From a bacterium (GTDB lineage Bacteria; Auribacterota; UBA3054; JAPLST01): a DNA stretch of 61,122 bases. The position numbers and the translations under genes are program-made. Shown one piece after another: positions 2,656 through 34,999 of the stretch (within the stretch, counting starts at the first letter, position 1; each line of letters opens with the position of its first letter). The stretch spans positions 1-61,122 of the forward strand of contig JAOACZ010000029.1 in NCBI GenBank assembly GCA_026417575.1. Reading direction: 5' to 3'. The notes beneath the pieces were generated by a model. It worked only from the letters and a program-made list of their open reading frames with translations, did no database searches and was not told the DNA's origin.

Positions 2656-2992
2656 CTTCTTGCGTCACCGCGGCCTGCGCATCCTCCAACGCAACTATCG
2701 CTGCCCCCACGGCGAAATTGACCTCGTCGCTGAAGACGGCCCCACCCTCGTCTTCGTTGAAGTCAAAACGCGCGCCGCCGAAAGTGATGAACTCCCCGAA
2801 GCCGCGCTCACCCCGCGCAAACGCCACCGCCTCTGCCGTGCCGCACGCCACTTCATGCAGACGTTCCACACCGGCGACCGTCTCTTTCGTTTCGACCTCG
2901 TCGGCATAGAACTCTTCCCTGACGGCTCCCATCGCATCCACCATTGGTCCAACATCATCAATTACCAACAGAACCTACGGCGTAGGCATTGA
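2513..2992 (+). CDS. yraN: YraN/UPF0102 family nuclease-like protein
   Basis: A small protein of the YraN (UPF0102) family, a predicted endonuclease-fold protein of uncertain role often encoded beside rnhB. The conserved core starts near GTHGELLAADFL and continues with NYRCPHGEIDLVAEDG and LVFVEVKTR; the E, D and E-x-K residues form the PD-(D/E)xK-like site. The frame overlaps the end of rnhB out of frame. ATG 2513 gives 159 residues; GTG 2546 is an alternative, and the true start is uncertain because the first 40 or so residues are not family-like. The gene ends 233 bp before the convergent cysK. Confidence 0.8.
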   Translation: MVPLSILLRYVVKVVARFIAGHSTSPASTLRPPSRAAAGTHGELLAADFLRHRGLRILQRNYRCPHGEIDLVAEDGPTLVFVEVKTRAAESDELPEAALTPRKRHRLCRAARHFMQTFHTGDRLFRFDLVGIELFPDGSHRIHHWSNIINYQQNLRRRH

Positions 2993-3224
2993 CGCAACAC
3001 ATGAGCTTACCCGGACCTCTATTCTTGCATTGCATCGCCTGGCGCGCCATTTCACCGCGTTCGTGAGAACACGCACGGGGACAGATGATCATCACACCGT
3101 CAGTTCACGCTGAGCAGCGCACCCATCCACACAGCATGGTACCCATGCGACTGGCTTTCTTCCCGCTTCTGCGTACTTAGTCCCGCCGCAAGCGCCTGTT
3201 ACCTCTAACCGCCGCGTCGCGGGC

Positions 3225-4160
3225 TTAGCCGCTCATGAACTGTTGAAACATCCACGTCGATAAATACCGCTCGCCGGTGTCGCAAATAACCGTCACGATC
3301 AGTTTGCCTTTGTTTTCAGGTCGTTTGGCAACTTCCAGGGCCGCCCACACATTCGCTCCTGCGGAAATGCCCGCTAAAATGCCTTCTTCACGCGCAAGTG
3401 CCCGCGAGGTTTCTCCGGCATCTTCATGGCGAGCAAGGATGATCTCATCAATCAAATCCCGTCGTAACACCTCCGGGACGAATCCCGGCCCGATCCCTTG
3501 AATCTTGTGCGGAGCTGGCGAGCCCCCCGACAGTACAGGTGAATCGACCGGCTCAACTGCAATTGCCTTGAACCCAGGCTTGCGCGGCTTAATCACTTCT
3601 GCCACACCTGTGATCGTACCGCCCGTGCCCACCCCCGCCACAAAAATATCAATCGCCCCCTCCGTATCGCGCCAAATCTCTTCCGCCGTCGTCGCGCGAT
3701 GGATTGCCGGATTAGCCGGGTTCTTAAACTGTTGAGGCATGTACGCTCCTGGAGTTTCCGCAAGCAGTTGCTCTGCCCGCTCCACCGCGCCGCGCATGCC
3801 TTTCTCCCCCGGTGTCAAAACAATCTCTGCCCCGAGGATCCTCAGCAACGCCCGGCGCTCCAGGCTCATCGTCTCCGGCATGGTCAGAATCAATTTGTAT
3901 CCCCGCGCCGCAGCTACAAACGCCAAAGCAATCCCTGTGTTTCCACTCGTAGGCTCAATAATTACTCCCCCGGGCTTTAACGCGCCACTTTTTTCGGCAG
4001 CGTTGATCATCGCTACGCCAATCCGGTCCTTAACGCTGCCAAGTGGATTGTGTGATTCCATTTTTACCGCCACGATACCTGGCAAACCCTTCGACAGCCG
4101 GTTAAGCCGTACGAGCGGCGTGTTGCCAACGGCGTGGGTGATGTCAGGAAGCATACTCAT
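3225..4160 (-). CDS. cysK: Cysteine synthase A (O-acetylserine sulfhydrylase)
   Basis: A 311-residue PLP enzyme that makes cysteine from O-acetylserine and sulfide. The PLP lysine is in NPLGSVKDR (Lys44). The substrate loop [13 protein letters not shown] and the phosphate-binding GTGGTITG region are intact. The ATG at 4160 was chosen over a GTG at 4166; AGAGGTG lies just upstream. It sits 20 nt after the Rrf2-type regulator and is almost certainly co-transcribed with it. This arrangement parallels iscR-like and CymR-like control of cysteine synthesis. It ends convergently with yraN; no clear rho-independent terminator is visible between them. Confidence 0.93.
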
Positions 4161-4180
4161 ACACACCTCTTTTGTGTAGG

Positions 4181-4621
4181 TTAAATCTCGTAGGTTAACG
4201 CAGAAGAGATCTGACGTTGATAAGCTTCTGCAAGGCTGGCAAGAGTAATGCCCGCCAAAGTCTGCCTGATGGTCTTTTCCAGAGTGCGCCAGACCTCACG
4301 CTCAATGCACACCGCCCCAGGCGTTGACTGATGCGTACCGCGCTCCGGCCGGACCACTTCTATATCACCTTGTAACACGCGGACGATGTCAAGTACAGTG
4401 ATCTGGGCAGGGGGTTTCGCCAGTCTGTAGCCACCATGCGTGCCGCGCGTCGAGTCAATCAAACCGTGGGCGCGCAGCGGGATGGCAATCAAACTGAGAT
4501 ACTTTTCAGACAGGTTCTCCCGCCGGGCAATGTCATGCAAAAAAGCATAGCCTTGGCCAGTGCGCAAAGCAAGCTGCAACATCAGGCGGACACCGTATTG
4601 AACACGCGTAGGAATTTTCAT
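4181..4621 (-). CDS. Rrf2 family transcriptional regulator (CymR-like)
   Basis: A 146-residue Rrf2-family repressor. The winged helix-turn-helix covers about residues 1-75, with the family signatures [17 protein letters not shown] and [15 protein letters not shown]. Only one cysteine (GAVCIERE) lies in the region where IscR and NsrR carry three cluster ligands, so an iron-sulfur cluster is unlikely. That makes it more like CymR, which senses cysteine supply through cysteine synthase in Bacillus. Linkage to cysK supports a role in sulfur or cysteine homeostasis. The promoter contains a dyad at the start site, suggesting autoregulation. Confidence 0.88.
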
Positions 4622-22689: not shown

Positions 22690-23932
22690 CACCGCGAATC
22701 ATGTATTTGTAGGTAGTCAGTTCCTCCAAGCCGACTGGACCGCGCGCGTGGAGTTTGTCGGTGCTGATGCCCATTTCGCAGCCCATGCCGAACTCGCCGC
22801 CGTCGGTGAAGCGGGTGCTAGCGTTGACGTAGACGGTGGCGGAGTCCACGTGCTGGAGGAAGTGAGCACCGATGTGGGGGCTTTCAGTAATGATGGCGTC
22901 GGAGTGATGAGAACCGTATTCGTTAATAAATGCGATAGCTTCATCGACGCCGTCGACGATTTTGACAGAGAGGATCAGGTCAAGGTATTCGGTGCGCCAG
23001 TCTTCTTCCGTGGCGTCACGAACGTTGGGGTCAATGGCTTTGACGCGCGGGCAACCACGCAGCTCGACATGAGCGGCACGGAAAGCGGCAAACAAGGGGG
23101 GAATGATACGCGGGGCAATTGCGGAATCGATGAGTAATGTTTCCATGGCGTTACAGACGCCTGGGCGCTGGACTTTGGCATTGAGACAGACTTTAATGGC
23201 TTTGTCAATGTCAGCATCTTTGGCGATGTAGGTGTGGCAGATGCCTTCGTAATGTTTAAGAACCGGGATGCGACTGGTTTCGGCCACTTTGCGAATGAGG
23301 CTTTTCCCGCCGCGGGGGATGACCAAGTCGACGTACTGCTCCATGCGCAGGAGGGCATCGACGGCGGTGCGGTCGGGGGTATCGACGAACTGGACGGCGG
23401 CGGCGGGGAGCTTGTTCTGGACGAGGGCTTGCTGAAAGAGGCGAGCGAGGGCGGCATTGGAGTGGAGAGCTTCGCTACCGCCGCGCAGGATGACAGCATT
23501 CCCGGATTTGAGGCAGAGGCTTGCGGCGTCAATAGTGACGTTTGGGCGGGCTTCATAGATAATGGCGATGACACCGATCGGGACGCGCACTTTGGTGATC
23601 GTAATGCCGGAGGGACGGGTACGTTGGTCGAGCACGCGGCCGACGGGGTCGGGCAAGGTAGCAACGGTGCGGACGCCGGCGGCGGTGGCGCGGATGCGCT
23701 CGGGGGTGAGAGTGAGGCGGTCGATAAGGGCTGGGGAGAGGCCGGCGGCGCGCGCGGCAGCGAGGTCACGGGTATTTTCTGCTGTGAGGTAGTCTATTTC
23801 TCGTTCCAAGGCGTCTGCAGTGGCGTTGAGAACAGCATTTTTCGCGTCGGCGCAGAGGTTTGCGAGGACACGCGAGGCCGCGCGCGCGGCGCGGCCGAGT
23901 TCCGTGACATAGCTGAGAATGTCGTTATTCAC
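22670..23932 (-). CDS. proA: Glutamate-5-semialdehyde dehydrogenase (gamma-glutamyl phosphate reductase)
   Basis: A 420-residue NADPH-dependent reductase, second step of proline synthesis. Family blocks IAIIYEARPNVTIDAASLCLKSGNA, LVIPRGGKSLI, HYEGICHTYI and the active-site Cys in VQRPGVCNAMETLL are intact, with RFTDGGEFGMGCEMGIST near the C-terminus. GTG 23932 overlaps the upstream gene's TGA by 4 nt; the open frame extends 26 codons further inside that gene and was rejected. No proB is in the window. Confidence 0.95.
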   Translation of the reverse strand: MNNDILSYVTELGRAARAASRVLANLCADAKNAVLNATADALEREIDYLTAENTRDLAAARAAGLSPALIDRLTLTPERIRATAAGVRTVATLPDPVGRVLDQRTRPSGITITKVRVPIGVIAIIYEARPNVTIDAASLCLKSGNAVILRGGSEALHSNAALARLFQQALVQNKLPAAAVQFVDTPDRTAVDALLRMEQYVDLVIPRGGKSLIRKVAETSRIPVLKHYEGICHTYIAKDADIDKAIKVCLNAKVQRPGVCNAMETLLIDSAIAPRIIPPLFAAFRAAHVELRGCPRVKAIDPNVRDATEEDWRTEYLDLILSVKIVDGVDEAIAFINEYGSHHSDAIITESPHIGAHFLQHVDSATVYVNASTRFTDGGEFGMGCEMGISTDKLHARGPVGLEELTTYKYMIRGDGSIRT

Positions 23933-25215
23933 GGCAGGTAGGCGCCCCAGGCCTTTTTCTGACTGGGCTTGCTGTACTTCACGGCGAAACCGCGGGCGAT
24001 GATGAAACACATCCCGCCCTTGGTGTCGTTTGGATTAGTACCGGTTAACACCATGCAGAAGGGGATTTGCAGGTCTGCGTTTCTGGCTTCTGGGGAGGTG
24101 GCATAGAGGCCGGTTGCGGATGACAAATTACTTTTCGCGATTTTGAGTGTGAAGCGAAGGACGTACTTCTTGTACTTCATGGTCAGGACGTGGACGCCGG
24201 TGGCGGGATCAGCTTTTTTGTTAGCAAGCTTCCGGCCCTTGCCACCGATAACCGCACTGCCCGCGTCACTGGTTTGCAAGGAGAAAAAGTCACCGAGGTA
24301 GATAGAAATGTCCAAGTCATTTAAGGTGGTAAAGATCGTCGCGTAGGGGGCGAGATTGACCTGTGCTTTGAGGACGAGGAAGTCTTTGTTTGGTTTGGTG
24401 AATACTTGCGAGAATTTGAGTTTGAGAGGGGTGATTTGCGTGGGGACTTTGACGCGGCGACCGGTTTCGTCAGGGATGTTGGCGAGAGACTCGGCCGTGC
24501 TCTTGTTTGGCGCGGCGAGGAGACGGTTGTAGATCACGTAGGGAGATTGACCGAGGGTCACTACGTCCCACCAGGCAGCGCCGCCAGCGTCGAGCAAGTC
24601 ATTTGAGACGATGCCGGAGACCATTGTGCCCAGAGTGTCCAGGACATAGGTGGGCGGACCGATGACGTATTTAAAGGTTTCTTGATTGAGGACACTCCGT
24701 GAGACAGTGCCGATCCAGCAGTTTTCATTACCCTCGCGGAAGAGGAGTAGTTTATTACCGAAGGAAAATTCGCCTATGTCGTTGGTGGCGGTCTGCAAGA
24801 CTTCTGGGTTAATGAACTGCCCGAACGAGGCTTGGACGTTGGCGAAGCGAGGGATGCAGACAAGGGTTTGATCAAGGTAGGAGCTACTCGGGTCCATGTA
24901 GGTGGCTGAGTAAACGTACATGTTGGAACGATAATCGCGCCCATAGCCGGTGAACAAGCGCATGGCGGGGTAATTGTTTTCCGAGCTGGTGTATTCAACA
25001 GTTTCTTGCAATTCATTGGCGTAGCGCACGCGCACACTGTAATCGTTGACATGCTTCAGCACGGTGTGATAAGGCTTGTACACCAGCGAGCCGATGACGC
25101 CGTCGCCGCTAATTTCAATGCGCAGGGCGCCGTTCTCCAAGACATTCCAGGCTGCGAAGGCAGCATGGGCGGTGATACCAGCTAGAGCGAAGAGAGAGAC
25201 AATGTTGTTTTTCAT
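23929..25215 (-). CDS. Secreted protein of unknown function
   Basis: A 428-residue protein with a typical signal peptide (MKNNIVSLFALAGITAHAAFA). I do not recognise the N-terminal two thirds. The part from about residue 270, with KLKFSQVFTKPNKDFLVLKA and a IGGKGRKLANKKAD-like loop, resembles a beta-rich repeat seen in secreted proteins of Planctomycetes and Lentisphaerae-type bacteria, where a 'KFNFxKPxKD' start and 'GKGK' turn recur; this is from memory. ATG 25215 was chosen by the signal peptide. It is coupled to proA by a 4-nt GTGA overlap, an odd partner for a secreted protein. Confidence 0.7.
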   Translation of the reverse strand: MKNNIVSLFALAGITAHAAFAAWNVLENGALRIEISGDGVIGSLVYKPYHTVLKHVNDYSVRVRYANELQETVEYTSSENNYPAMRLFTGYGRDYRSNMYVYSATYMDPSSSYLDQTLVCIPRFANVQASFGQFINPEVLQTATNDIGEFSFGNKLLLFREGNENCWIGTVSRSVLNQETFKYVIGPPTYVLDTLGTMVSGIVSNDLLDAGGAAWWDVVTLGQSPYVIYNRLLAAPNKSTAESLANIPDETGRRVKVPTQITPLKLKFSQVFTKPNKDFLVLKAQVNLAPYATIFTTLNDLDISIYLGDFFSLQTSDAGSAVIGGKGRKLANKKADPATGVHVLTMKYKKYVLRFTLKIAKSNLSSATGLYATSPEARNADLQIPFCMVLTGTNPNDTKGGMCFIIARGFAVKYSKPSQKKAWGAYLP

Positions 25216-25281
25216 ACCGTTTGTTTCACGCGTCGTTAGCCCCCACCACCAAAACCAAGATATAGTACAAACCACCGCGCT

Positions 25282-25310
25282 AGTGTACCAGATTTGACGC
25301 AGGAAGTCAA
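25282..25310 (-). promoter_or_regulatory. Sigma-70 promoter of the secreted-protein/proA operon
   Basis: On the minus strand TTGACT (25310-25305), 17 nt, TACACT (25287-25282). The leader to ATG 25215 is about 60 nt. A dyad TTGAC-N7-GTCAA (25294-25310) overlaps the -35 box and could be an operator. Confidence 0.55.
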
Positions 25311-25835
25311 AAATGTGGACGATGGATTGGGCAACTGGCAGACTCTGCCGACGGTTGAGTGGTGCGGTGATAGGCAAAGGCGTGAGTGAGAGTGGGTCGA
25401 GGTGTCTTGTTGCGCGGGTAGAGCCAGTGACGCGGCGTTGGGAGGTGCATCGCTGCACTGCATGCCACGTGTGGTGCTTACGGAGACTGTAGCCACGGCG
25501 GATGCGCTGTTTTTACGTTAAAACGGTAGCTGCGCTGTCACTGTGTAAGCTTAGGCACGAGTCTTGGAAAGACGAGGACTTGGAATTATGGCATGGATTT
25601 CGTATAATGAGCGCATGTTTGCGCGCGTAAATAGAGGGGATAGTGAAGCGGCGGTGAGTAAGCGTGCCGGTGATAGCGAACCGATGTGGGTGGATTATGG
25701 TGCACGGATAAGCGAGCCGGTGAGCGCGAGCGATAGTGAGTTATCGCCGGTGGCAAGGAAAGGGAGCGCTGGGTGTGGGAAGTGCGTTGCAGGAATACCT
25801 AGAGGGCATATCAGCAGGCGTATGAGCGGGAGAAG
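25311..25835. other. Intergenic region upstream of the sugar cluster
   Basis: A good promoter TTGGAA-N17-TATAAT (25580-25608, plus strand) precedes ATG 25615 by 6 nt; that frame gives 78 residues of low-complexity sequence with repeated DSE motifs and no recognised family. Short frames in the other two phases between 25724 and 25825 look protein-like too, which may mean a decayed gene or just purine-rich sequence. No terminator seen. Confidence 0.35.
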
Positions 25836-26000
25836 ATGTTCCGGCGCGTGAAACTGGCAGTGGGGCGAGAGCGAGGAGGCGAATGGTGGGAAAGTGTTGT
25901 TGTGGGAGCGGCGACGTTCCGCAGTGAAGTGCTTGGTAACGTGGCTGAGTTTGTTGACGTGGGGCGTTGGGTATACTTTTTGACCGACCAAGGAGTCTAA
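25836..26000 (+). CDS. Possible small protein upstream of the ChbG-like gene
   Basis: A 54-codon frame from ATG 25836 to TAA 25998-26000, ending 1 nt before the ATG of the next gene. The product begins MFRRVKLAVG and has a plausible beta-strand-rich composition (WWESVVVGAATF, FVDVGRWVYFLTD). GGGAG lies 3 nt before the ATG, which is closer than ideal. No family recognised. It could be a genuine leader gene coupled to the deacetylase, the end of a broken gene, or chance. Confidence 0.35.
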   Translation: MFRRVKLAVGRERGGEWWESVVVGAATFRSEVLGNVAEFVDVGRWVYFLTDQGV

Positions 26001-26001
26001 T

Positions 26002-26775
26002 ATGGTGGCCGAGGAAGGCGTGATTCGGCTAGTGACGCGGGGTGATGATGCGGGGAGTTGTCGTACAGCAAACGTAGCGATACGGGACTGCGCGGTGCGT
26101 GGCATTTTGCGAAATGTCTCGGTGTTGGCGGTGGGTCCAGCGGTGGATCATGCAGCGCGAATTTTGCGAAGTTGTGATGGGCTTTGTATCGGACTACATG
26201 CGTGCATTACCGCGGAGTGGGAGGAGGTGAAGTGGGGGCCGGTCTTACCGACGAAAGTGGTGCGCTCGCTCGTAGACCGGCGGGGATACTTTCGACGGAC
26301 GGTCCAAGAGTTACATGAGCGCGGGGTAGAGTGTGAAGAGCTCATGGCGGAAGTAGCGGCCCAGCTAGCAGTGTTGCGCGGGTTGAAGTTGCCTGTGGCG
26401 TATGTTGACACGCACATGGGGTTTGAGTGGCTACCGGGGGTGCGGGAGCGCATGGTGGCGTTTGCGGCGCGGGAGGGGTTACTTTATGCGCCGGAAGCAG
26501 TGCGTCCGTTGCCTCGAGTAGAGGGCCATTATTCTTCATCGGTGGCCGGCGTGTGTGCGAGCTTGGCGGCGGCGAAGCCAGGTACGTATGCACTGATTGG
26601 CCATCCGGGATACGTACGAGCGGACATGCGGCGGTTCGGACACAAAGGGTATCGCGACGTAGCGCGGGATCGGGACGAGCAACGGCGATGGTTCATGGAT
26701 CCGGCGGTGCTTGCGTGCTGTGAAGCTCATCGGGTGAAGCCAATTCGATACACAGATGTGGGGGAGAAAGAATAA
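26002..26775 (+). CDS. ChbG/HpnK (YdjC-like) carbohydrate deacetylase
   Basis: A 257-residue YdjC-fold protein. Metal-binding residues are in RGDDAGSC (Asp16), GLHACITAEWEEVKWGPVLP (His66) and YVDTHMGFEW (His138). The family removes N-acetyl groups from sugars such as chitobiose or hopanoid-linked glucosamine. No signal peptide, so it acts in the cytoplasm. AAGGAG is 7 nt before the ATG. A TATACT box lies at 25972-25977 but without a good -35. First recognisable gene of the plus-strand sugar cluster; substrate unknown. Confidence 0.85.
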   Translation: MVAEEGVIRLVTRGDDAGSCRTANVAIRDCAVRGILRNVSVLAVGPAVDHAARILRSCDGLCIGLHACITAEWEEVKWGPVLPTKVVRSLVDRRGYFRRTVQELHERGVECEELMAEVAAQLAVLRGLKLPVAYVDTHMGFEWLPGVRERMVAFAAREGLLYAPEAVRPLPRVEGHYSSSVAGVCASLAAAKPGTYALIGHPGYVRADMRRFGHKGYRDVARDRDEQRRWFMDPAVLACCEAHRVKPIRYTDVGEKE

Positions 26776-26798
26776 GTGGCGCGGGCGAAGGGGTAGGT

Positions 26799-27869
26799 AT
26801 GGGAAGTATTGGCGAGTGGAATAGTCCGATTCAGCGCGCGCCGGATTTCAGTGAGCTATTGGCGGTCTTGCGACGCGAGCGGCCGAGGCGGCCCGTGTTG
26901 TTTGAACTTTTCCTGAACACGCCGCTTTACCGTATGTTGGCGGGTGAGGAGGTGGCACGAGCGTATGATGCTGGGGAGCTGACATGGGAAGAAGTGCAAA
27001 TGTGGGCTATGCGAAACGCAGGATATGATTATGTTACCGTGCGAGCAAGCACGTTCGAATTTCCGCGACGGGAACAGCATTGTGAAAAGACGCTTTCACT
27101 GAACGAAGGTGCGGTGATTACTGATCGAGCCTCATTTGAGGCGTTGTCGTGGACGGAGCCCGATGGAAGTGACTGGAGCATGCTCGACAAACTTGGAAGT
27201 GTGCTACCAGAAGGGATGAAGTTAATAGTGTATGGCCCTGGCGGAGTGTTGGAGAACGTTGTGCGCATGGTAGGGTACGAAAATTTATGTTTGTTGCTGG
27301 CTGACGACCCAGAGTTTGTTGCCGAGATATTCGATGCCGTTGGTTCACGTTTGCTGCGCTATTACGAACTGTGTGTACGGCATCCGGCGGTGGGAGCGAT
27401 CGTCAGCAACGACGATTGGGGGTTTAAGTCACAAACGATGGTATCGCCGGCTGACTTACGGCGATATGTTTTTCCATGGCATGCGCGGATTGTTGCAGTG
27501 GCGCATGCGGCAGGGAAGCCGGCGATTCTTCACTCGTGTGGTAACCTGTCGGCGGTGATGGATGACGTGATCGAGGTGATGAGATTTGACGCCAAACATT
27601 CGTATGAGGACACGATTCAACCAGTGGAAGAGGCATACGAACAGTACTGCGGGCGCATAGCGATCTTGGGAGGGATCGACGTGAATTTTGTGTGCCGGGC
27701 GACGGCGCAGGAGGTGTACGAGCGAAGTCGAGGGATGGTGGAACGGGGGTCGCGGTGTGGAGGTTATGCGTTAGGGACGGGCAATAGTGTGCCAGAGTAT
27801 GTGCCGCAGAAGAACTATTTCGCGATGATTCAGGCGGCGTGGGAGGAGGGGGAAACAGGGAAGCGATGA
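26799..27869 (+). CDS. Uroporphyrinogen decarboxylase-fold protein, MtaA-like methyltransferase candidate
   Basis: A 356-residue URO-D superfamily protein. True URO-D makes coproporphyrinogen, but this copy carries the zinc signature of methylcobalamin-dependent methyltransferases: His245-x-Cys247 in ILHSCGNLSAV and Cys320 in SRCGGYALGTGNSVP. It therefore more likely moves methyl groups between a corrinoid protein and a thiol or tetrahydrofolate. GGTAGGT precedes the ATG at 26799, 23 nt after the deacetylase gene. No corrinoid protein or activase is adjacent. Association with glycosidases suggests handling of O-methylated or otherwise modified sugars, which is inference. Confidence 0.8.
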   Translation: MGSIGEWNSPIQRAPDFSELLAVLRRERPRRPVLFELFLNTPLYRMLAGEEVARAYDAGELTWEEVQMWAMRNAGYDYVTVRASTFEFPRREQHCEKTLSLNEGAVITDRASFEALSWTEPDGSDWSMLDKLGSVLPEGMKLIVYGPGGVLENVVRMVGYENLCLLLADDPEFVAEIFDAVGSRLLRYYELCVRHPAVGAIVSNDDWGFKSQTMVSPADLRRYVFPWHARIVAVAHAAGKPAILHSCGNLSAVMDDVIEVMRFDAKHSYEDTIQPVEEAYEQYCGRIAILGGIDVNFVCRATAQEVYERSRGMVERGSRCGGYALGTGNSVPEYVPQKNYFAMIQAAWEEGETGKR

Positions 27870-28039
27870 GCAGGAGGGGCAAGAGCAGAAGGTTTTTGGG
27901 GGTAACACCGATGACAGATTTGAGAAAAGGGTCGGTTGCTGCGAGGAGACGGGAGAGTTTGTGGACGAAGAGGGGCAGGTGGGGTACTTTGAGCATGACA
28001 CTGTACGTGCGCGGGTAACAGGGGAATGAGGAGAAGTTT

Positions 28040-30829
28040 ATGGAAGGGCGTTCAGCACAGTTTATCTGGTACGACAGAGAAGGGCGCGGTCGCAACTTGT
28101 ACGCGTGTTTTCGCTACGTGTTTAATGTTGACAGTGGGGTACGACGCGCAGTGCTTCATCTTTTTGCCGACACGACGTATCAACTGTTTGTGAATGGGGC
28201 ATTTGTGGAGTTTGGGCCTGTCCGATTCGATCCGCGGTTTCCGCAGTATGACAGCGTCGATTTGGCGCCGTGGTTGCAGCAGGGCAAGAACGTTGTGGCT
28301 GTCCTTGTGAACAGTATTCAACACAAGACGTTCAAGGGTATTCCGAACCAAGGTGGGTTTATCGCCTGGGGCTCTGTGGAACTTGAGGATGGCAGCATAG
28401 TCAAGCTGGACACGACGCCGGGGCGTTGGCGGGCGGTCCCAGACATGGCGCGCAGTCGGTACGTAGGAAAATTCAGCTTTGCTCTGAGTGCGGCGGAATA
28501 CTATGATCAACGTGGAGAGCAGCCTGGTTGGACGCATGTGGGATTCGACGATCGTGGGTGGCCGCCGGCAGTGATACTACGCAACCAAGAGGCATGGGGA
28601 CGACTGACACCGCGGCGGATTCCATTTATGCGTCGAGATATGGTACCTGTGCGTGCAGTGCGGCATGTGTTGCCGTTATTAGCAAGCGAGGTACGGTACT
28701 CGTGGTGGGCACCATTTCCACCGCATTATGAAGATGATCGCGCAGCCTACAGTCCCTTTTTTGCGTTTCGGACGTGGGTGTATTCGCCGTGCGAGCAAGT
28801 AGTGAATGTGGGGACATTTTGGGGCGACAACTGGCTCAACGGGGAGAAGGTTGCTCGAGGAACAGATTGTTATTTGCGTCCGATGCGGATCAATCAAAAA
28901 TGGGCGCTGCGCCAGGGGTGGAATTATCTGTTTGGATGCGTGGACGCGTATCAAGATATTGTGGAGCAGTACTTTGCGGTGCCGCGCGATAGCGGAATAA
29001 TCTTCGATGCAAAGAGGGGAGTGGGCGACGGGGTGTATACGTTCGAACGAACGCGAATGCTCACGGTAGAAGAGTATGAAAGAGTTTTCGCGAAGAAAGA
29101 CATGCCGTATGCACCAACAGACGCGCTAAAAGAGATTGGGGGCTGGGTGGCGGTGCACAGAGATGACGCGGCAGAGAGTCCGGCTCGCGAGACGAGCTGG
29201 GACTTATATGGAGATGCGGTAGAAGAGGTCACGGCTGACGGGTTGGTGGGGCACACGTTTCGGCTTCAGGATTATCCACACGGTTTCTCGTTGTTGTTGG
29301 ATTTGGGGAAAATACATCTAGTATGGCCGCGGTTGCAATTTACTGGAGTGCGCGGGGCAAGGATTGACGTAACGTCGAATGAGCATTTATGCGGCGACGG
29401 GCAGCATCTGCGCTTGATGCATCATTATCCTGCGGCGGACCGAATTGTGTGCGTGCGCGATGAGGTGGAGTGGATGCCAGCGCAGGCGCGTGGTGTACGT
29501 TATCTGATGATTACAGTGCGGAATGCTTCGCAGGATGTAACACTGAAGGGCTTGTCGCTGCGTAGTGCCTCGTATCCTGTGAAACAGGTGGGATCATTTC
29601 ACTGTTCGGACCGGCTGCTGACAGAGATATGGGAAATGTGCGCGCGCACGCTGGCGACGAATATGGAGGATGCATACGACGATTGTGTGGGGCGGGAGCG
29701 TGGGATGTATGGGCGGGATACAATCATTCAGTACTTTGTCAATTTGGCGACGTTTGGTGATCAGGCGTTAATGGGGCGCTGTTTGCAGTTGTTTGGCCAA
29801 TCGCCGGATGGGACAGGGAAATTTCGTGCGGTGTACCCGAACACCGGCGATTACACGATTGCCGATTTTGCGCTGAACATGGTGGAGGGCTACTGGGCGT
29901 ACTACCGGTACAGTGGCGATCTGGCGCGAATCCGAGAAGATTGGGGGGCGATCAAACAGAATCTCGCATGGTTCCATGAGTTAGCGGATGAGCGGAGCGA
30001 CTTATTGTTGGATGCGGACTGGCATGTGAAGCGCGGCGTACACGCACACTACGGAGGTTTTCACGGAGATCTGGCAGCACAGGGGTACATGAGCGTGTCA
30101 GGAGTGCACTGCGTGTTTTCGTGTATGTATCTGAGTGCGTTGCGGAGCGCGGTGGAGCTGGCGCGAGTGGTGGGCGACGCACGTGAAGCTCGAGAATTAG
30201 AAAAGCGGGCACGGCGGGTGGCCCAGTCTATTCGAAGCACGTTCTGGAATAGGCGTTTGGGATGTTACAGTGACAATTTAGCGCGCGACACGCATTCAGC
30301 GCACGCAAGCTTGCTGGCGGTGCGCAGCGGGGCGGCAGCGCGGGCGCAGTGGCCTGCGCTGCGGCGGTACATCGCGCGTGAGTTGCGCTCAGTGTTTGTG
30401 AACGGATATGACCCGTCGGAAGGGTGCAAGTTCAGTCCGAGTTTCGCATTTTATTTGTTTGAGGCCTTGTACCAGCTTGGGATGGCGGCGACAGCAGAGG
30501 AGTTGATGCGACAGGGGTGGGGGTGGATGTTAGCGCAGGGGTTGCGCACATGTGGCGAGCATTTTGATACGAGGCAGAGCTTGTGCCACGCCTGGTCGGC
30601 GTCGCCGGCATATTTTTTGTCGCGGCATGTACTTGGTGTTCAGTATCCTGCGGCGCCGGACTACTCGCGCGTGGAAATTCGGGTAGAAACGGCGGGAGTG
30701 ACCGAAGCAGAGGGGGCGTATCCACACCCGCGTGGAGTAGTGAAAGTGAAGTGGCATATGGAGCGCGGGCGACGTGTGTTTGATTATGTGAAAGCACCGC
30801 GAGGGGTGCGTGTAATTATTCATCAGTAA
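28040..30829 (+). CDS. GH78-type alpha-L-rhamnosidase
   Basis: A 929-residue glycosidase. N-terminal beta-sandwich domains (LHLFADTTYQLFVNGAFV, then a second jelly roll with DNWLNGEKV) precede an (alpha/alpha)6 barrel. The catalytic region EDAYDDCVGRERGMYGRD (Glu543-Asp560) matches the ED-x-DC-x-RER pattern of inverting rhamnosidases, and the C-terminal sandwich begins near YSRVEIRVET. There is no signal peptide, so it would act on imported oligosaccharides. GGAG sits 7-8 nt upstream of the ATG. 170 nt separate it from the methyltransferase gene; 18 nt from the next gene. Confidence 0.85.
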   Translation: MEGRSAQFIWYDREGRGRNLYACFRYVFNVDSGVRRAVLHLFADTTYQLFVNGAFVEFGPVRFDPRFPQYDSVDLAPWLQQGKNVVAVLVNSIQHKTFKGIPNQGGFIAWGSVELEDGSIVKLDTTPGRWRAVPDMARSRYVGKFSFALSAAEYYDQRGEQPGWTHVGFDDRGWPPAVILRNQEAWGRLTPRRIPFMRRDMVPVRAVRHVLPLLASEVRYSWWAPFPPHYEDDRAAYSPFFAFRTWVYSPCEQVVNVGTFWGDNWLNGEKVARGTDCYLRPMRINQKWALRQGWNYLFGCVDAYQDIVEQYFAVPRDSGIIFDAKRGVGDGVYTFERTRMLTVEEYERVFAKKDMPYAPTDALKEIGGWVAVHRDDAAESPARETSWDLYGDAVEEVTADGLVGHTFRLQDYPHGFSLLLDLGKIHLVWPRLQFTGVRGARIDVTSNEHLCGDGQHLRLMHHYPAADRIVCVRDEVEWMPAQARGVRYLMITVRNASQDVTLKGLSLRSASYPVKQVGSFHCSDRLLTEIWEMCARTLATNMEDAYDDCVGRERGMYGRDTIIQYFVNLATFGDQALMGRCLQLFGQSPDGTGKFRAVYPNTGDYTIADFALNMVEGYWAYYRYSGDLARIREDWGAIKQNLAWFHELADERSDLLLDADWHVKRGVHAHYGGFHGDLAAQGYMSVSGVHCVFSCMYLSALRSAVELARVVGDAREARELEKRARRVAQSIRSTFWNRRLGCYSDNLARDTHSAHASLLAVRSGAAARAQWPALRRYIARELRSVFVNGYDPSEGCKFSPSFAFYLFEALYQLGMAATAEELMRQGWGWMLAQGLRTCGEHFDTRQSLCHAWSASPAYFLSRHVLGVQYPAAPDYSRVEIRVETAGVTEAEGAYPHPRGVVKVKWHMERGRRVFDYVKAPRGVRVIIHQ

Positions 30830-30847
30830 CTACAGTGGAGAGAAGAG

Positions 30848-33385
30848 ATGGCGTTTAGTGCACGGATGGAACGGGGTCATCGGCCACGGAGCGGAGTGAC
30901 GTTGGGTGGGGTTGGTACGGGAGGCATGGAACTGCGTCACGACGGTGTGTTTTACAACTGGTCGATCTTTAACAACTACCCACTTGGTCTTGGGGCGCCT
31001 TTTACGATGGCGCATGACTCGGTACTATTTTTTGTCGTGCGGTTTCGGGAAGCGGGCGGAGAACCGAAGATGCGCTTATTGCAAATTGAGCCTGAGTATG
31101 GTGCCGCAGGTTTGATCGATCATCCGCACTACTATGTGTTTCCGTGGCTGTCGGGCGTGGACGAGACGACGTATGAAGGGGTGTTTCCCCGAGTGCGAAT
31201 GAGATTTCGCGATCGCGCAATGCCATGTGACGTGGAATTGGAGGCGTGGTCGGCGTTTATCCCGCATGACGTGAAGAATTCGTGCTTGCCGGCGGTGTTC
31301 TTCGAGTTTACAGTGATACCGAGGACGCGTCGGCGCTTAGAGGTGATGCTAATGGCGAGTATGCGGAATGCGGTGGCGTACGACATACCTGAGCGCACGT
31401 ACGTCAGTCGTGTGGTACGAGGGAAGGGATATCTGGGTTTTGAGATGACGTGCGACGGGGTAGACCCTGCGCACGCGTCAATGGGGACGATGGGTGTGAT
31501 TTCTTTCGCGCCCGAATCGACGTATTACTTAGGTTGGGAGCATCGTCACCCGTATTACGAGATTGCACTGCGGCAGGCACGGCTGCCAAACATAGATGAC
31601 ACGGAGGGGCGGAACGTAATGGACGAGGAGCGGGGGCGGCGCGTAGCTATGGAGCGGTGCTTTTCGACTGTGGCATATTCGCGCACGTTGCGTGGGGAGC
31701 GTGACCGATTACAGCACAGTTTTGCTGCGGTGTGGCATTTCCCCAACCGGTACGCAGAGTCGGTGAACAGGGGAAGGCATCACGCGCGGCCTGAGCCGGC
31801 TGAGCACATTGAAGGACATTACTACAGTAATTTTTTTGCGTCGGCGGCGGAGGTGGCGGCATACGTGGCAGCGCAGCGGTGCATGTTGCGTCGGCGGACG
31901 ATGGCGTTTGTAGACGCGTTTTACCGGAGTAGCGTTGATCGGGTGGTGCTCGATCAAATCAATTCGCACCTTAACACATTTGTGACGAGTAGCTGGGTAA
32001 CGAAGAGTGGAGATTTTGGTGTGTTGGAGGGGATTGATCCGCATCATTCGTACGCCGGCTTGGCAACTATGGACGTAGCGATGTATGGAGGTGTGAGCGC
32101 AGCTACGTTATTTCCCGAACTTGATCGGGCGATGCTGCGGGCGCACCGGCGGTTTCAGAGTGAGCGGGGGACGGTAGCGCATTCGATTACGCGGAATTTC
32201 AAAGAGATTCAAGCACGGGAATTGGAAGGGAAACGCATTGACATGCCGGCGCAGTACGCCTATATGGTAGTGCGGGCAGGATTATGGGCCGAGGATTTGG
32301 CGTTTCTGCGGGAGATGTGGCCATCGGTGAAGAGTGCCCTTGATTACGTTTTGCGTGAACGCGATGGAGACGGAGATTGTCTGCCGGACATGGAGGGGAT
32401 CATGTGTTCGTATGACAATTTTCCGATGTACGGGGCATCGTCGTATGTTGGGGGACAATTTCTTGCCGCGGTGGCGGCGGCGGTGGAAGCGGCACGATTG
32501 TTGGGGGACGAGGAGGCGGCGACACGTTACGGAAGCGTATTAGCGCGCGGTGCGCGCGCGTTTGAGGAGAAGCTGTGGAACGGGCAGTATTATCGTTTGT
32601 ACAATGACGAAGCTGGGACGCATGGGAAGGATGAGGGGTGCCTTGCGGACCAGCTGCTCGGGCAGTGGGCGGCGCACCTGTGCGGCTTGTCATTGCCGCT
32701 GGATCCCCGGCGTGTGAAGCGGGCACTGCGGTATATCATGAAGCAGAACTATCATCCGGAGTACGGTCTGCGGAACTGTCGGTGGCCGGGGGATAGTTTT
32801 CTTCACGAGGTAGACAAAGACACATGGGTGGATCAGGCGAACACGGTGTGGTCAGGGGTTGAATTGGCGTTTGCGTCGTTGTTATTGTACGAGGGGATGT
32901 GGCGGGATGCGCTCCGCGTGATTAAGCAAGTGGATACGCGTTATCGCCATTGGGGGATGTACTTTGACCACCAGGAATTTGGCGGGCACTATTATCGCGC
33001 GATGTCGGCGTGGGGAATTATGAATGGGTTGCTGGGACTGGCAATGAAGAACGGGCGATACACGTTTGCCCCGCGGGTACCTGGGGACGAGGTGCGATTG
33101 TTCTTCTCGCACGCCCGTGGGACAGGGCTTTATTCGCGGCAGAAGGAGAGAGGAAAGGAAGTGATCAGGCTGGAGGTGGTGAGTGGGGAATTTTGTGCGC
33201 GCGAGGTGGAGCTTGGGAGCAGGGTGGCAAAAGTGGTACAGGTGGAGCTGATAGCAGAACAGCGGGCACGAATACCGAGGCGGTGGCGGTGGGAGGCTAG
33301 TGCCGGAATGGTGCGGTTATTTTTTTCGGGCGGGCTGCAAGTCAGGGAAGGAGGGGCAGTACAAATAAAAGTAGGGCGGGCGTGA
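30848..33385 (+). CDS. GH116 family glycoside hydrolase (GBA2-like)
   Basis: An 845-residue protein related to non-lysosomal glucosylceramidase and bacterial GH116 beta-glucosidase/xylosidase enzymes. The N-terminal domain begins with GGVGTGGMELRHDGVFYNWSIFNN. The catalytic domain has Glu394 in VLEGID (nucleophile position) and Asp523 in CSYDNFPMYGASSYVGGQ (acid/base position), matching the TxGH116 arrangement. No signal peptide. Coupled closely to the GH78 gene (18-nt gap, GGAGAG Shine-Dalgarno). Substrate could be beta-glucoside, xyloside or another beta-linked sugar. Confidence 0.85.
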   Translation: MAFSARMERGHRPRSGVTLGGVGTGGMELRHDGVFYNWSIFNNYPLGLGAPFTMAHDSVLFFVVRFREAGGEPKMRLLQIEPEYGAAGLIDHPHYYVFPWLSGVDETTYEGVFPRVRMRFRDRAMPCDVELEAWSAFIPHDVKNSCLPAVFFEFTVIPRTRRRLEVMLMASMRNAVAYDIPERTYVSRVVRGKGYLGFEMTCDGVDPAHASMGTMGVISFAPESTYYLGWEHRHPYYEIALRQARLPNIDDTEGRNVMDEERGRRVAMERCFSTVAYSRTLRGERDRLQHSFAAVWHFPNRYAESVNRGRHHARPEPAEHIEGHYYSNFFASAAEVAAYVAAQRCMLRRRTMAFVDAFYRSSVDRVVLDQINSHLNTFVTSSWVTKSGDFGVLEGIDPHHSYAGLATMDVAMYGGVSAATLFPELDRAMLRAHRRFQSERGTVAHSITRNFKEIQARELEGKRIDMPAQYAYMVVRAGLWAEDLAFLREMWPSVKSALDYVLRERDGDGDCLPDMEGIMCSYDNFPMYGASSYVGGQFLAAVAAAVEAARLLGDEEAATRYGSVLARGARAFEEKLWNGQYYRLYNDEAGTHGKDEGCLADQLLGQWAAHLCGLSLPLDPRRVKRALRYIMKQNYHPEYGLRNCRWPGDSFLHEVDKDTWVDQANTVWSGVELAFASLLLYEGMWRDALRVIKQVDTRYRHWGMYFDHQEFGGHYYRAMSAWGIMNGLLGLAMKNGRYTFAPRVPGDEVRLFFSHARGTGLYSRQKERGKEVIRLEVVSGEFCAREVELGSRVAKVVQVELIAEQRARIPRRWRWEASAGMVRLFFSGGLQVREGGAVQIKVGRA

Positions 33386-33442
33386 CGTGGCTGGCTGTGC
33401 GGGATAGACGGGCAGGAGGTTGCGAACTGAGGGGGCGCGTAG

Positions 33443-34999
33443 CTATGGGACGTGGGTAAGAGACGGGTTGGAAGACGAGGGGGTCGGTTGGGGCTCTGAG
33501 GTGGAAGTCGAGATGCGGCCGTAAAGTTCTGTGAGTTCGCGCAGGCGGGAGGCCACGGAGCTGGTGAGCTGCTCAGGTACGTAGCGCCACTGCCAGTTGC
33601 CTTCTGGGCGGCCGGGGAAATTCATGCGAGCAGTGCTATCGAGGCTCAGCACATCCTGGAGCGGAATGATGGCGAGTTCCGCGACAGACGCGAGCGCGGC
33701 GCGAATCATGACCCAGCTAATGTCAGAGCCGTCGCACATGAAGTAACGCCGCACGTGATCGCGTGTTTTCTCATCCGCAGAGCGATACCAGCCGAGGGAG
33801 GTGTCATTATCATGGCTACCCGTGTAGACGACACAGTGGCGCGGGTAGTTGTGGGGGAGGAATTCATTCTGTGCATCGCCGCCGAAGCCGAACTGGAGGA
33901 TTTTCATTCCTGGGAAGCCATATTTGTCGCGTAAGGCTTCCACTTCGGGGGTGATGACACCGAGGTCTTCTGCGATGAGAGGAACGGGACCGAGGGTGGT
34001 GCGCAGGGTAGCGAACAATTCGTCCCCGGGTGTTTTCAGCCATTCACCGATTTCTGCGGTGGGGTTGCCAGCTGGGACAGCCCAGCAGCTTTCGAAGCCA
34101 CGGAAGTGATCTATGCGCACGATGTCAACCATGGTGAGGGCGTGGCGGAAGCGTTCGATCCACCAGCGAAACTTTTCTTGGCGGCAAGCGTCCCAACGAT
34201 AAAGTGGGTTGCCCCAGAGCTGGCCGGTGGCGCTAAAGTAGTCGGGGGGGACGCCTGCAACGACTGTCATCCGCCCGGCCTCGTCCAGGTAAAAGAGTTG
34301 GGGATGTGCCCAGACATCTGCGCTGTCATAAGCGACGAAGATGGGCATATCGCCAATGATGCGGATGTTATGAGTGTGGGCGTAGCGACGTAGTGCGTCC
34401 CATTGCCGGAAGAATTCGTACTGGAGGAAGCGATGGAAGTTGAGATCGTCTGTTGAGACTTGGAAGGGAGGCTGAGTGATGTGGTTCTTGCCGGTGCTCC
34501 ATTCGCTCCAGAGGCGCCCATCATGTGCGTCTTTGCAAGCCATGAAGAGGGCGTAGTCGTCGAGCCAGGAACGGTGGGCGCGGGCGAAAGCCTCGAGTTC
34601 GGCACGTTGTGCGGGCGTGGCGTCGGCGGAGAAGCGCTGGTAGGCTTTGCGCAACATGGCGAGATGGAAAGTAATAACGGGTCCGTAGTCGACGCGCTCA
34701 CGGGGGAAGGGTGGACACTGAGCGAGCTCTGCGCGAGTGAGTAATCCCTGGGCTTCGAGCTCGTCGAGGCTAATTAGATAATGATTGCCGGCGAACGCAG
34801 AGAAGCATTGATAAGGCGAATCGCCGAACCCGGTTGGGCCGAGGGGCATGACTTGCCACAGCTGCTGGCCTGCTTCGGCAAGAAAATCGATAAACGAGCG
34901 TGCGCAAGGACCTAGGTCGCCGATACCATAAGGACCGGGCAATGAAGTGGGATGAAGCAGGATACCACTGCGGCGAGGTGCGGACTTTTGTGTTGTCAT
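33443..34999 (-). CDS. malQ: 4-alpha-glucanotransferase
   Basis: A 518-residue GH77 amylomaltase (disproportionating enzyme) moving alpha-1,4-glucan segments, used in maltodextrin and glycogen metabolism. RRSGILLHPTSLPGPYGIGDLG, VDIVRIDHFRGFESCWAVP (catalytic Asp), LIAEDLGVITPEV (catalytic Glu) and YTGSHDNDTSLGW (stabilising Asp) are all present. The last 20 residues are a Ser/Pro-rich tail. ATG 34999 lies 34 nt after smpB with no Shine-Dalgarno; a TATACT sits 5 nt upstream but lacks a matching -35. Convergent with the GH116 gene, 57 nt apart. Confidence 0.96.
   Translation of the reverse strand: MTTQKSAPRRSGILLHPTSLPGPYGIGDLGPCARSFIDFLAEAGQQLWQVMPLGPTGFGDSPYQCFSAFAGNHYLISLDELEAQGLLTRAELAQCPPFPRERVDYGPVITFHLAMLRKAYQRFSADATPAQRAELEAFARAHRSWLDDYALFMACKDAHDGRLWSEWSTGKNHITQPPFQVSTDDLNFHRFLQYEFFRQWDALRRYAHTHNIRIIGDMPIFVAYDSADVWAHPQLFYLDEAGRMTVVAGVPPDYFSATGQLWGNPLYRWDACRQEKFRWWIERFRHALTMVDIVRIDHFRGFESCWAVPAGNPTAEIGEWLKTPGDELFATLRTTLGPVPLIAEDLGVITPEVEALRDKYGFPGMKILQFGFGGDAQNEFLPHNYPRHCVVYTGSHDNDTSLGWYRSADEKTRDHVRRYFMCDGSDISWVMIRAALASVAELAIIPLQDVLSLDSTARMNFPGRPEGNWQWRYVPEQLTSSVASRLRELTELYGRISTSTSEPQPTPSSSNPSLTHVP

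Follow-up and report, generated by a model that had tools for sequence, protein, structure and literature searches.

O-methylated sugars are common in rhamnogalacturonan II, in the glucuronic acid of xylan and in algal and bacterial polysaccharides. The window (the whole stretch of 61,122 nucleotides that was analysed) contains a gene for a protein of the URO-D superfamily, designated P0001, amid genes of carbohydrate breakdown, which raises the question of what such a protein does in this setting. The initial annotation proposed anaerobic removal of O-methyl groups from methylated sugars and knew of no described system of that kind; in agreement with this, the literature searched describes neither a corrinoid demethylation of sugars nor a corrinoid enzyme that attacks a sugar ether. 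Enzymatic demethylation of sugars is documented there only in an oxidative form: in marine Bacteroidota, 6-O-methyl-galactose is demethylated by a cytochrome P450 monooxygenase with release of formaldehyde (PMC8360166). If P0001 strips O-methyl groups from sugars without oxygen, it would catalyze a reaction without published enzyme in that literature and represent the oxygen-free counterpart of the P450 reaction. Such an anaerobic corrinoid route would explain the use of O-methyl sugars by gut, sediment and termite-gut bacteria, provide anaerobic C1 metabolism with an additional methyl source from plant and algal sugars, and give a function to a large protein group mostly annotated only as 'uroporphyrinogen decarboxylase family'.

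Gene arrangement in the window

The intact open reading frame of P0001 is the second of four genes on the same strand, in the order YdjC, URO-D, GH78 and GH116, separated by 23, 170 and 18 nt (Table 1). Pfam searches thereby bear out the initially described position between a deacetylase, which ends 23 nt upstream, and a rhamnosidase-like protein downstream. The single promoter-like site in this region corresponds to a number not above chance. No corrinoid protein is encoded near P0001 within the window. Upstream of the cluster, the minus strand carries a long open reading frame without Pfam family (23929-25458); secreted look-alikes of its product are encoded elsewhere in the same genome (contig C205, 10858-14971).

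Table 1. Features of the P0001 gene cluster (positions refer to the window)
Feature	Position	Strand	Basis or remark
Promoter-like site upstream of the four-gene run	25580..25608	+	sole one on the + strand in 25400-33600
YdjC-type carbohydrate deacetylase	26002..26775	+	PF04794 5.7e-36
P0001, URO-D-superfamily methyltransferase-like protein	26799..27869	+	356 aa; ORF, Pfam, AF2/Foldseek, tree
HxC motif His245-Ser-Cys247-Gly	27531..27542	+	C-terminal end of barrel strand E242-245; alignment and AF2
Cys320 codon, earlier proposed third zinc ligand	27756..27758	+	not conserved
Asn329 codon	27783..27785	+	at the position of the third MtaA Cys in the profile alignment; invariant
GH78-type alpha-L-rhamnosidase-like protein, no evident signal peptide	28040..30829	+	PF17389 9.8e-32, PF08531 8e-10
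GH116-family glycosidase (beta-glucosidase 2 type), no evident signal peptide	30848..33385	+	PF04685 6.8e-53, PF12215 1.8e-36

Overall fold and family assignment

P0001 is a member of the URO-D superfamily, since its match to the Pfam profile PF01208 (4.5e-18, 65.8 bits) lies above the gathering score of 23.9 and its AF2 model (pLDDT 94, pTM 0.92) displays the URO-D barrel fold. In a Foldseek comparison, the model is matched best by MtaA (4ay7, 8e-14), closely followed by HemE (1.4e-13); weak matches to xylose-isomerase-like epimerases were also obtained, and a phmmer search of the PDB with the P0001 sequence gave no matches. The top NCBIfam models are those of methylcobalamin:CoM methyltransferase (1e-13) and MtaA/CmuA (1.1e-11), with scores of 51 and 44.6 bits that are far below the curated cut-offs of 244 and 235.4 bits, respectively, whereas the HemE model gave no match at E <= 0.01. 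Within the superfamily, P0001 is nearer to MtaA than to haem URO-D. By its sequence, it nevertheless falls outside the MtaA/MtbA/CmuA group, as judged from the curated cut-offs and the third Cys of MtaA (see below).

With HemE, P0001 shares fold and Pfam family. However, the residues that we take to be typical of HemE, an N-terminal Arg motif and the active-site His in LGHG, are replaced or missing: P0001 has no RQAGR-type motif at its N-terminus, and the His position is occupied by Thr or Ser throughout the family (LG[TS]GN, LGTG in place of LGHG). These motifs, in combination with the model searches, rule out P0001 as a haem URO-D. Conserved haem-URO-D residues instead of the zinc site, an observation that the initial annotation had named as speaking against its proposal, are consequently not seen; what distinguishes P0001 from HemE is the HxC site and the sugar context.

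Active site

His245 and Cys247 are present in all 81 aligned family members, as are Glu36, Asp205 and His267, and Asp206 is found in 80 of them. In the AF2 model, the conserved residues come after the barrel strands 198-204, 242-245, 265-267, 288-290 and 323-325, a predicted placement at strand ends as should be expected of an active site. A profile alignment with MtaA places the HSCG motif of the family opposite HICG.

The initial annotation had described a zinc signature composed of His245, Cys247 and Cys320. While the HxC part is strictly conserved, Cys320 is ruled out as a zinc ligand by its poor conservation: a Cys is found at this position in 2 of the 81 sequences, most of which have Arg or Lys instead. 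Moreover, the third Cys of MtaA (in GCG) is aligned not with Cys320 but with Asn329 in a G-N-S motif, and Asn329 is invariant in a broader set of 54 sequences. Since this third Cys ligand is absent, the zinc site of P0001 is not assured, and if the protein binds a metal, the third ligand must be a residue other than Cys320. Some MT-I members of the URO-D superfamily, O-demethylases and haloalkane enzymes, work without zinc, among them CdmB and the Moorella O-demethylase (PMC13222342).

Relatives of P0001

A single scan yielded at least 313 stretches related to P0001. The best 80 of these matches are distributed over Lentisphaerae, Kiritimatiellae, Bacillota, Armatimonadota, Planctomycetota and Treponema. 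When placed in a tree together with further URO-Ds, P0001 groups with its relatives in a single clade, separate from the URO-Ds of corrinoid loci (SH-aLRT 98 and 98); the tree was built rapidly, contains several long branches, and its Mlp-like side consists of corrinoid-locus URO-Ds and not of reference Mlp sequences. A second URO-D of the window's own genome, encoded on contig C198, falls among the corrinoid-locus proteins.

This topology bears on the direction of the presumed reaction. P0001 might run in reverse, in the manner of MtaA, and methylate a thiol with the corrinoid-bound methyl group, or it might serve methyl-sulfur or methyl-selenium metabolism like Mlp, the sugar setting being incidental. 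MtaA, the top match by structure and by family, is a thiol methylase, related Mlp clusters are tied to sulfur and selenium metabolism (PMC10418091), and PALP/cysteine-synthase-like proteins are neighbours of the family gene in some loci. However, P0001 groups apart from the Mlp-resembling corrinoid-locus URO-Ds, it is devoid of the third Cys that completes the thiol-activating zinc site of MtaA, and sulfur genes are outnumbered among the neighbours by AraC regulators and sugar genes. We therefore regard a thiol- or sulfur-directed role as quite improbable.

Link to corrinoid machinery

The initial annotation had suggested a search for corrinoid proteins near relatives of P0001. Such proteins were found as direct neighbours in two Treponema loci (L108 and L091), in which an MtaC-like corrinoid protein (phmmer e-71) follows 19-27 nt after the family gene; these are the only 2 of the 80 loci with this adjacency, and both belong to Emb289P3 termite-gut bins. 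In L108, another URO-D comes after the corrinoid protein, the corrinoid-protein activase RACE is encoded 2.5 kb away, and there are two more URO-Ds besides the family protein. Two URO-Ds of L108 other than the family protein group in the tree with those of a Lentisphaerae RACE-corrinoid locus.

At the level of whole genomes, RACE is present in 48 of the 50 carrier genomes sampled, which span several phyla, and a stand-alone short corrinoid protein of MtaC-like size likewise in 48 of 50. In about 17 of these genomes, as read from the tables, no more than a few kb separate the two. The usual layout in carriers is one corrinoid-RACE locus, often with extra URO-Ds, in addition to scattered URO-Ds. 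Because a phylum-only sample (44 genomes) was too small, co-occurrence was evaluated in 289 genomes chosen by kinship, and RACE was found in 21 of 23 carriers versus 71 of 266 non-carriers (odds ratio 29, p = 9e-10, a value to be read as a guide only because the genomes are not independent). This co-occurrence may in part track an anaerobic, URO-D-rich lifestyle.

The genome of the window, a MAG that is 81% complete, holds further parts of such a system. It encodes ten URO-Ds, none of which looks like HemE, and a corrinoid protein on contig C9. On contig C205 (8807-10507), a MeTr-type pterin methyltransferase gene is located 18 nt before folD, and methyl groups likely enter folate C1 metabolism through this pair. 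A Pfam search of this genome for the C-terminal domain of RACE was negative because the RACE gene, of which the 5' part follows proC, runs off the end of contig C147 (proC and RACE part, 2989-4181). This 5' part overturned the notion that RACE is absent, and the same proC-RACE order is repeated in a related genome (G004). The URO-D on contig C198 (6176-8778) is MtaA/Mlp-like, has an SPGC motif and a C-terminal extension and is encoded beside a CobW-type GTPase; its orthologues sit at two corrinoid loci (L126 and L136). Another paralogue, on contig C22 (5364-10240), is accompanied by deoC-like, hydroxyacid-dehydrogenase-like and Gfo/Idh-like genes, a setting that likewise looks sugar-related.

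P0001 is thus likely, on these genomic comparisons, to be a corrinoid methyltransferase, a role that appears well supported. Alternatively, the URO-D barrel could have been repurposed for a lyase, decarboxylase or isomerase acting on sugars or sugar acids, in which case P0001 would not be a methyltransferase and the corrinoid link would be a correlate of lifestyle. This would be in line with the incomplete MtaA zinc site, the weak similarity to xylose-isomerase-like epimerases and the fact that most copies are not located beside corrinoid genes. On the other hand, the HxC motif is invariant, the co-occurrence with RACE and corrinoid proteins is strong and extends over multiple phyla, and in Treponema a corrinoid protein is encoded immediately after the family gene, in a locus whose other URO-Ds group with those of a Lentisphaerae corrinoid locus. 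A non-methyltransferase function is therefore considered unlikely.

Sugar-related neighbourhoods

Next to the nearest orthologue of P0001 (63% identical, in G004), a YdjC gene is found directly upstream, and a weakly GH5-like protein and a GH36-type protein are encoded downstream. A locus from a termite-gut member of the Defluviitaleaceae (Bacillota; L109, 805-17989) comprises cobW, an aldolase, a ketohexokinase, two GH30-like proteins, a URO-D and RhaA, followed by an Fe-alcohol dehydrogenase, YdjC, a xylose-isomerase-like protein and another URO-D. As annotated from their sequences, genes of rhamnose metabolism and YdjC hence surround the family gene in a second phylum. In a planctomycete (L073), the URO-D is flanked by GH141 and GH65, with GH95-like and GH2 proteins beyond, and in four related Treponema the family gene has a co-directional GH127 neighbour, which is confined to this one Treponema lineage. 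Other co-directional neighbours include FGGY kinases, ROK and SIS proteins and a pectate lyase.

A divergent AraC regulator, present in 17 of the 80 loci, is the individual neighbour seen most often. Victivallis vadensis DSM 14823 (L110) has such a divergent AraC gene with its family gene, and its genome also encodes a corrinoid protein and RACE. Among 117 near proteins, HTH_AraC occurs in 13, whereas it does not reach the top 25 families of 117 far proteins. Many copies are solitary, with an AraC-type regulator next to them, operonic partners are mixed, and many neighbours are unrelated (e.g. FliG, TrmO and GGDEF proteins). A strong and specific pairing of URO-D and glycosidase was not found, the family counts giving AraC regulators, mixed enzymes and some glycoside hydrolases. 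The pairs that the initial annotation had proposed to search for do recur in other genomes, albeit diffusely: the link to glycosidases and sugar genes is recurrent but loose and not exclusive.

Given corrinoid methyl transfer by P0001, these neighbourhoods make a sugar the reasonably probable substrate. The methyl donor could instead be a methoxylated aromatic aglycone, set free once a plant glycoside, for instance a flavonoid rutinoside, has lost its rhamnose and glucose to the GH78 and GH116 enzymes. A small glycoside taken up by the cell would suit the combination of a rhamnosidase and a beta-glucosidase-family enzyme that both lack signal peptides, and the known URO-D-superfamily O-demethylases MtvB, OdmB, VdmB and MtoB use methoxylated aromatics (PMC13222342). 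However, YdjC acts on sugars, and sugars are also indicated by RhaA, aldolase, ketohexokinase and YdjC in the Defluviitaleaceae locus and by pectate lyase, GH141, GH65 and GH127 elsewhere. We hold an aromatic donor to be rather unlikely.

Proposed mechanism

Tentatively, and at somewhat short of even chances, we interpret P0001 as the substrate-specific MT-I of a dispersed corrinoid demethylation system, for which an O-methylated sugar is the most likely substrate at this locus. Fold, conserved residues, gene order, the presence of the parts and their genome-level co-occurrence form the basis of the following scheme, in which activity, metal, substrate, direction and order of steps are inferred. 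The neighbouring deacetylase and glycosidases would release an O-methyl sugar, e.g. an O-methyl-6-deoxyhexose such as O-methyl-rhamnose. At the barrel end, Glu36, Asp205/206, His245, Cys247, His267 and Asn329 would bind the methyl ether and activate it, possibly with zinc on His245 and Cys247 and an oxygen ligand replacing the third Cys of MtaA. The methyl group would then be transferred to Co(I) of a shared corrinoid protein, whose gene lies at another place in the genome, and handed to tetrahydrofolate by the MeTr-type enzyme encoded beside folD, and RACE would repair corrinoid that has become oxidised to Co(II). The weakest chemical step is cleavage of the alkyl ether, since alkyl ethers resist cleavage more strongly than phenyl ethers do, although the zinc enzyme MtaB is able to use methanol.

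Of the anaerobic O-methyl removal suggested at the outset, the corrinoid methyl transfer has gained substance from the Treponema neighbours, the carrier genomes and the parts in the window's own genome. The O-methyl sugar, in contrast, still has to be inferred because the sugar link is diffuse, with many solitary copies and mixed operonic partners.

Comparison with known systems

Like the soluble methylcobamide:CoM methyltransferases MtaA and MtbA, vitamin-B12-dependent enzymes of methanogens (4ay7; TIGR01463/NF040654), P0001 combines a URO-D barrel and an HxCG motif with a corrinoid partner in the genome. In contrast to these enzymes, it is only about 14% identical in the fold comparison, has the invariant Asn329 in place of the third Cys, reaches 33-51 bits against cut-offs of 235-600 and occurs in bacterial fermenters in a sugar context.

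By analogy, the P0001 family may work like the MT-I component of O-demethylase systems. The role expected of it is that of MtvB, OdmB, VdmB, MtoB, CdmB and CmuA, i.e. a substrate-specific methyl donor to a corrinoid protein, acting together with RACE and an H4folate-methylating MT-II. Those enzymes, whose substrates are aromatics or haloalkanes, are usually encoded in a cluster with their corrinoid protein, whereas members of the P0001 family are scattered away from the corrinoid locus and located by sugar genes, a distinction drawn from gene order and substrates. With the P450 route, the proposed reaction has in common that an O-methyl group is removed from a sugar during polysaccharide breakdown; unlike it, the reaction would be anaerobic and keep the methyl group on a C1 carrier.

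The type 1 mlp clusters (PMC10418091) resemble the present case in that anaerobes with a RACE-corrinoid locus possess several URO-D paralogues per genome. Mlps, however, are tied to methyl-sulfur and methyl-selenium metabolism, and P0001 lies outside the clade of corrinoid-locus URO-Ds in a tree in which these proteins represent the Mlp-like side. More broadly, and with less confidence than for P0001 itself, it is conceivable that anaerobes of at least five phyla demethylate O-methylated glycans by means of a shared corrinoid protein, its activase and an H4folate methylase, served by URO-Ds in sugar-catabolic loci.

In the corrinoid-RACE loci (L126-L142), RACE and the URO-D often have between them the gene of a conserved, presumably DUF1638-like protein, which is small (about 240-260 aa, MKFKLISCEIF...).
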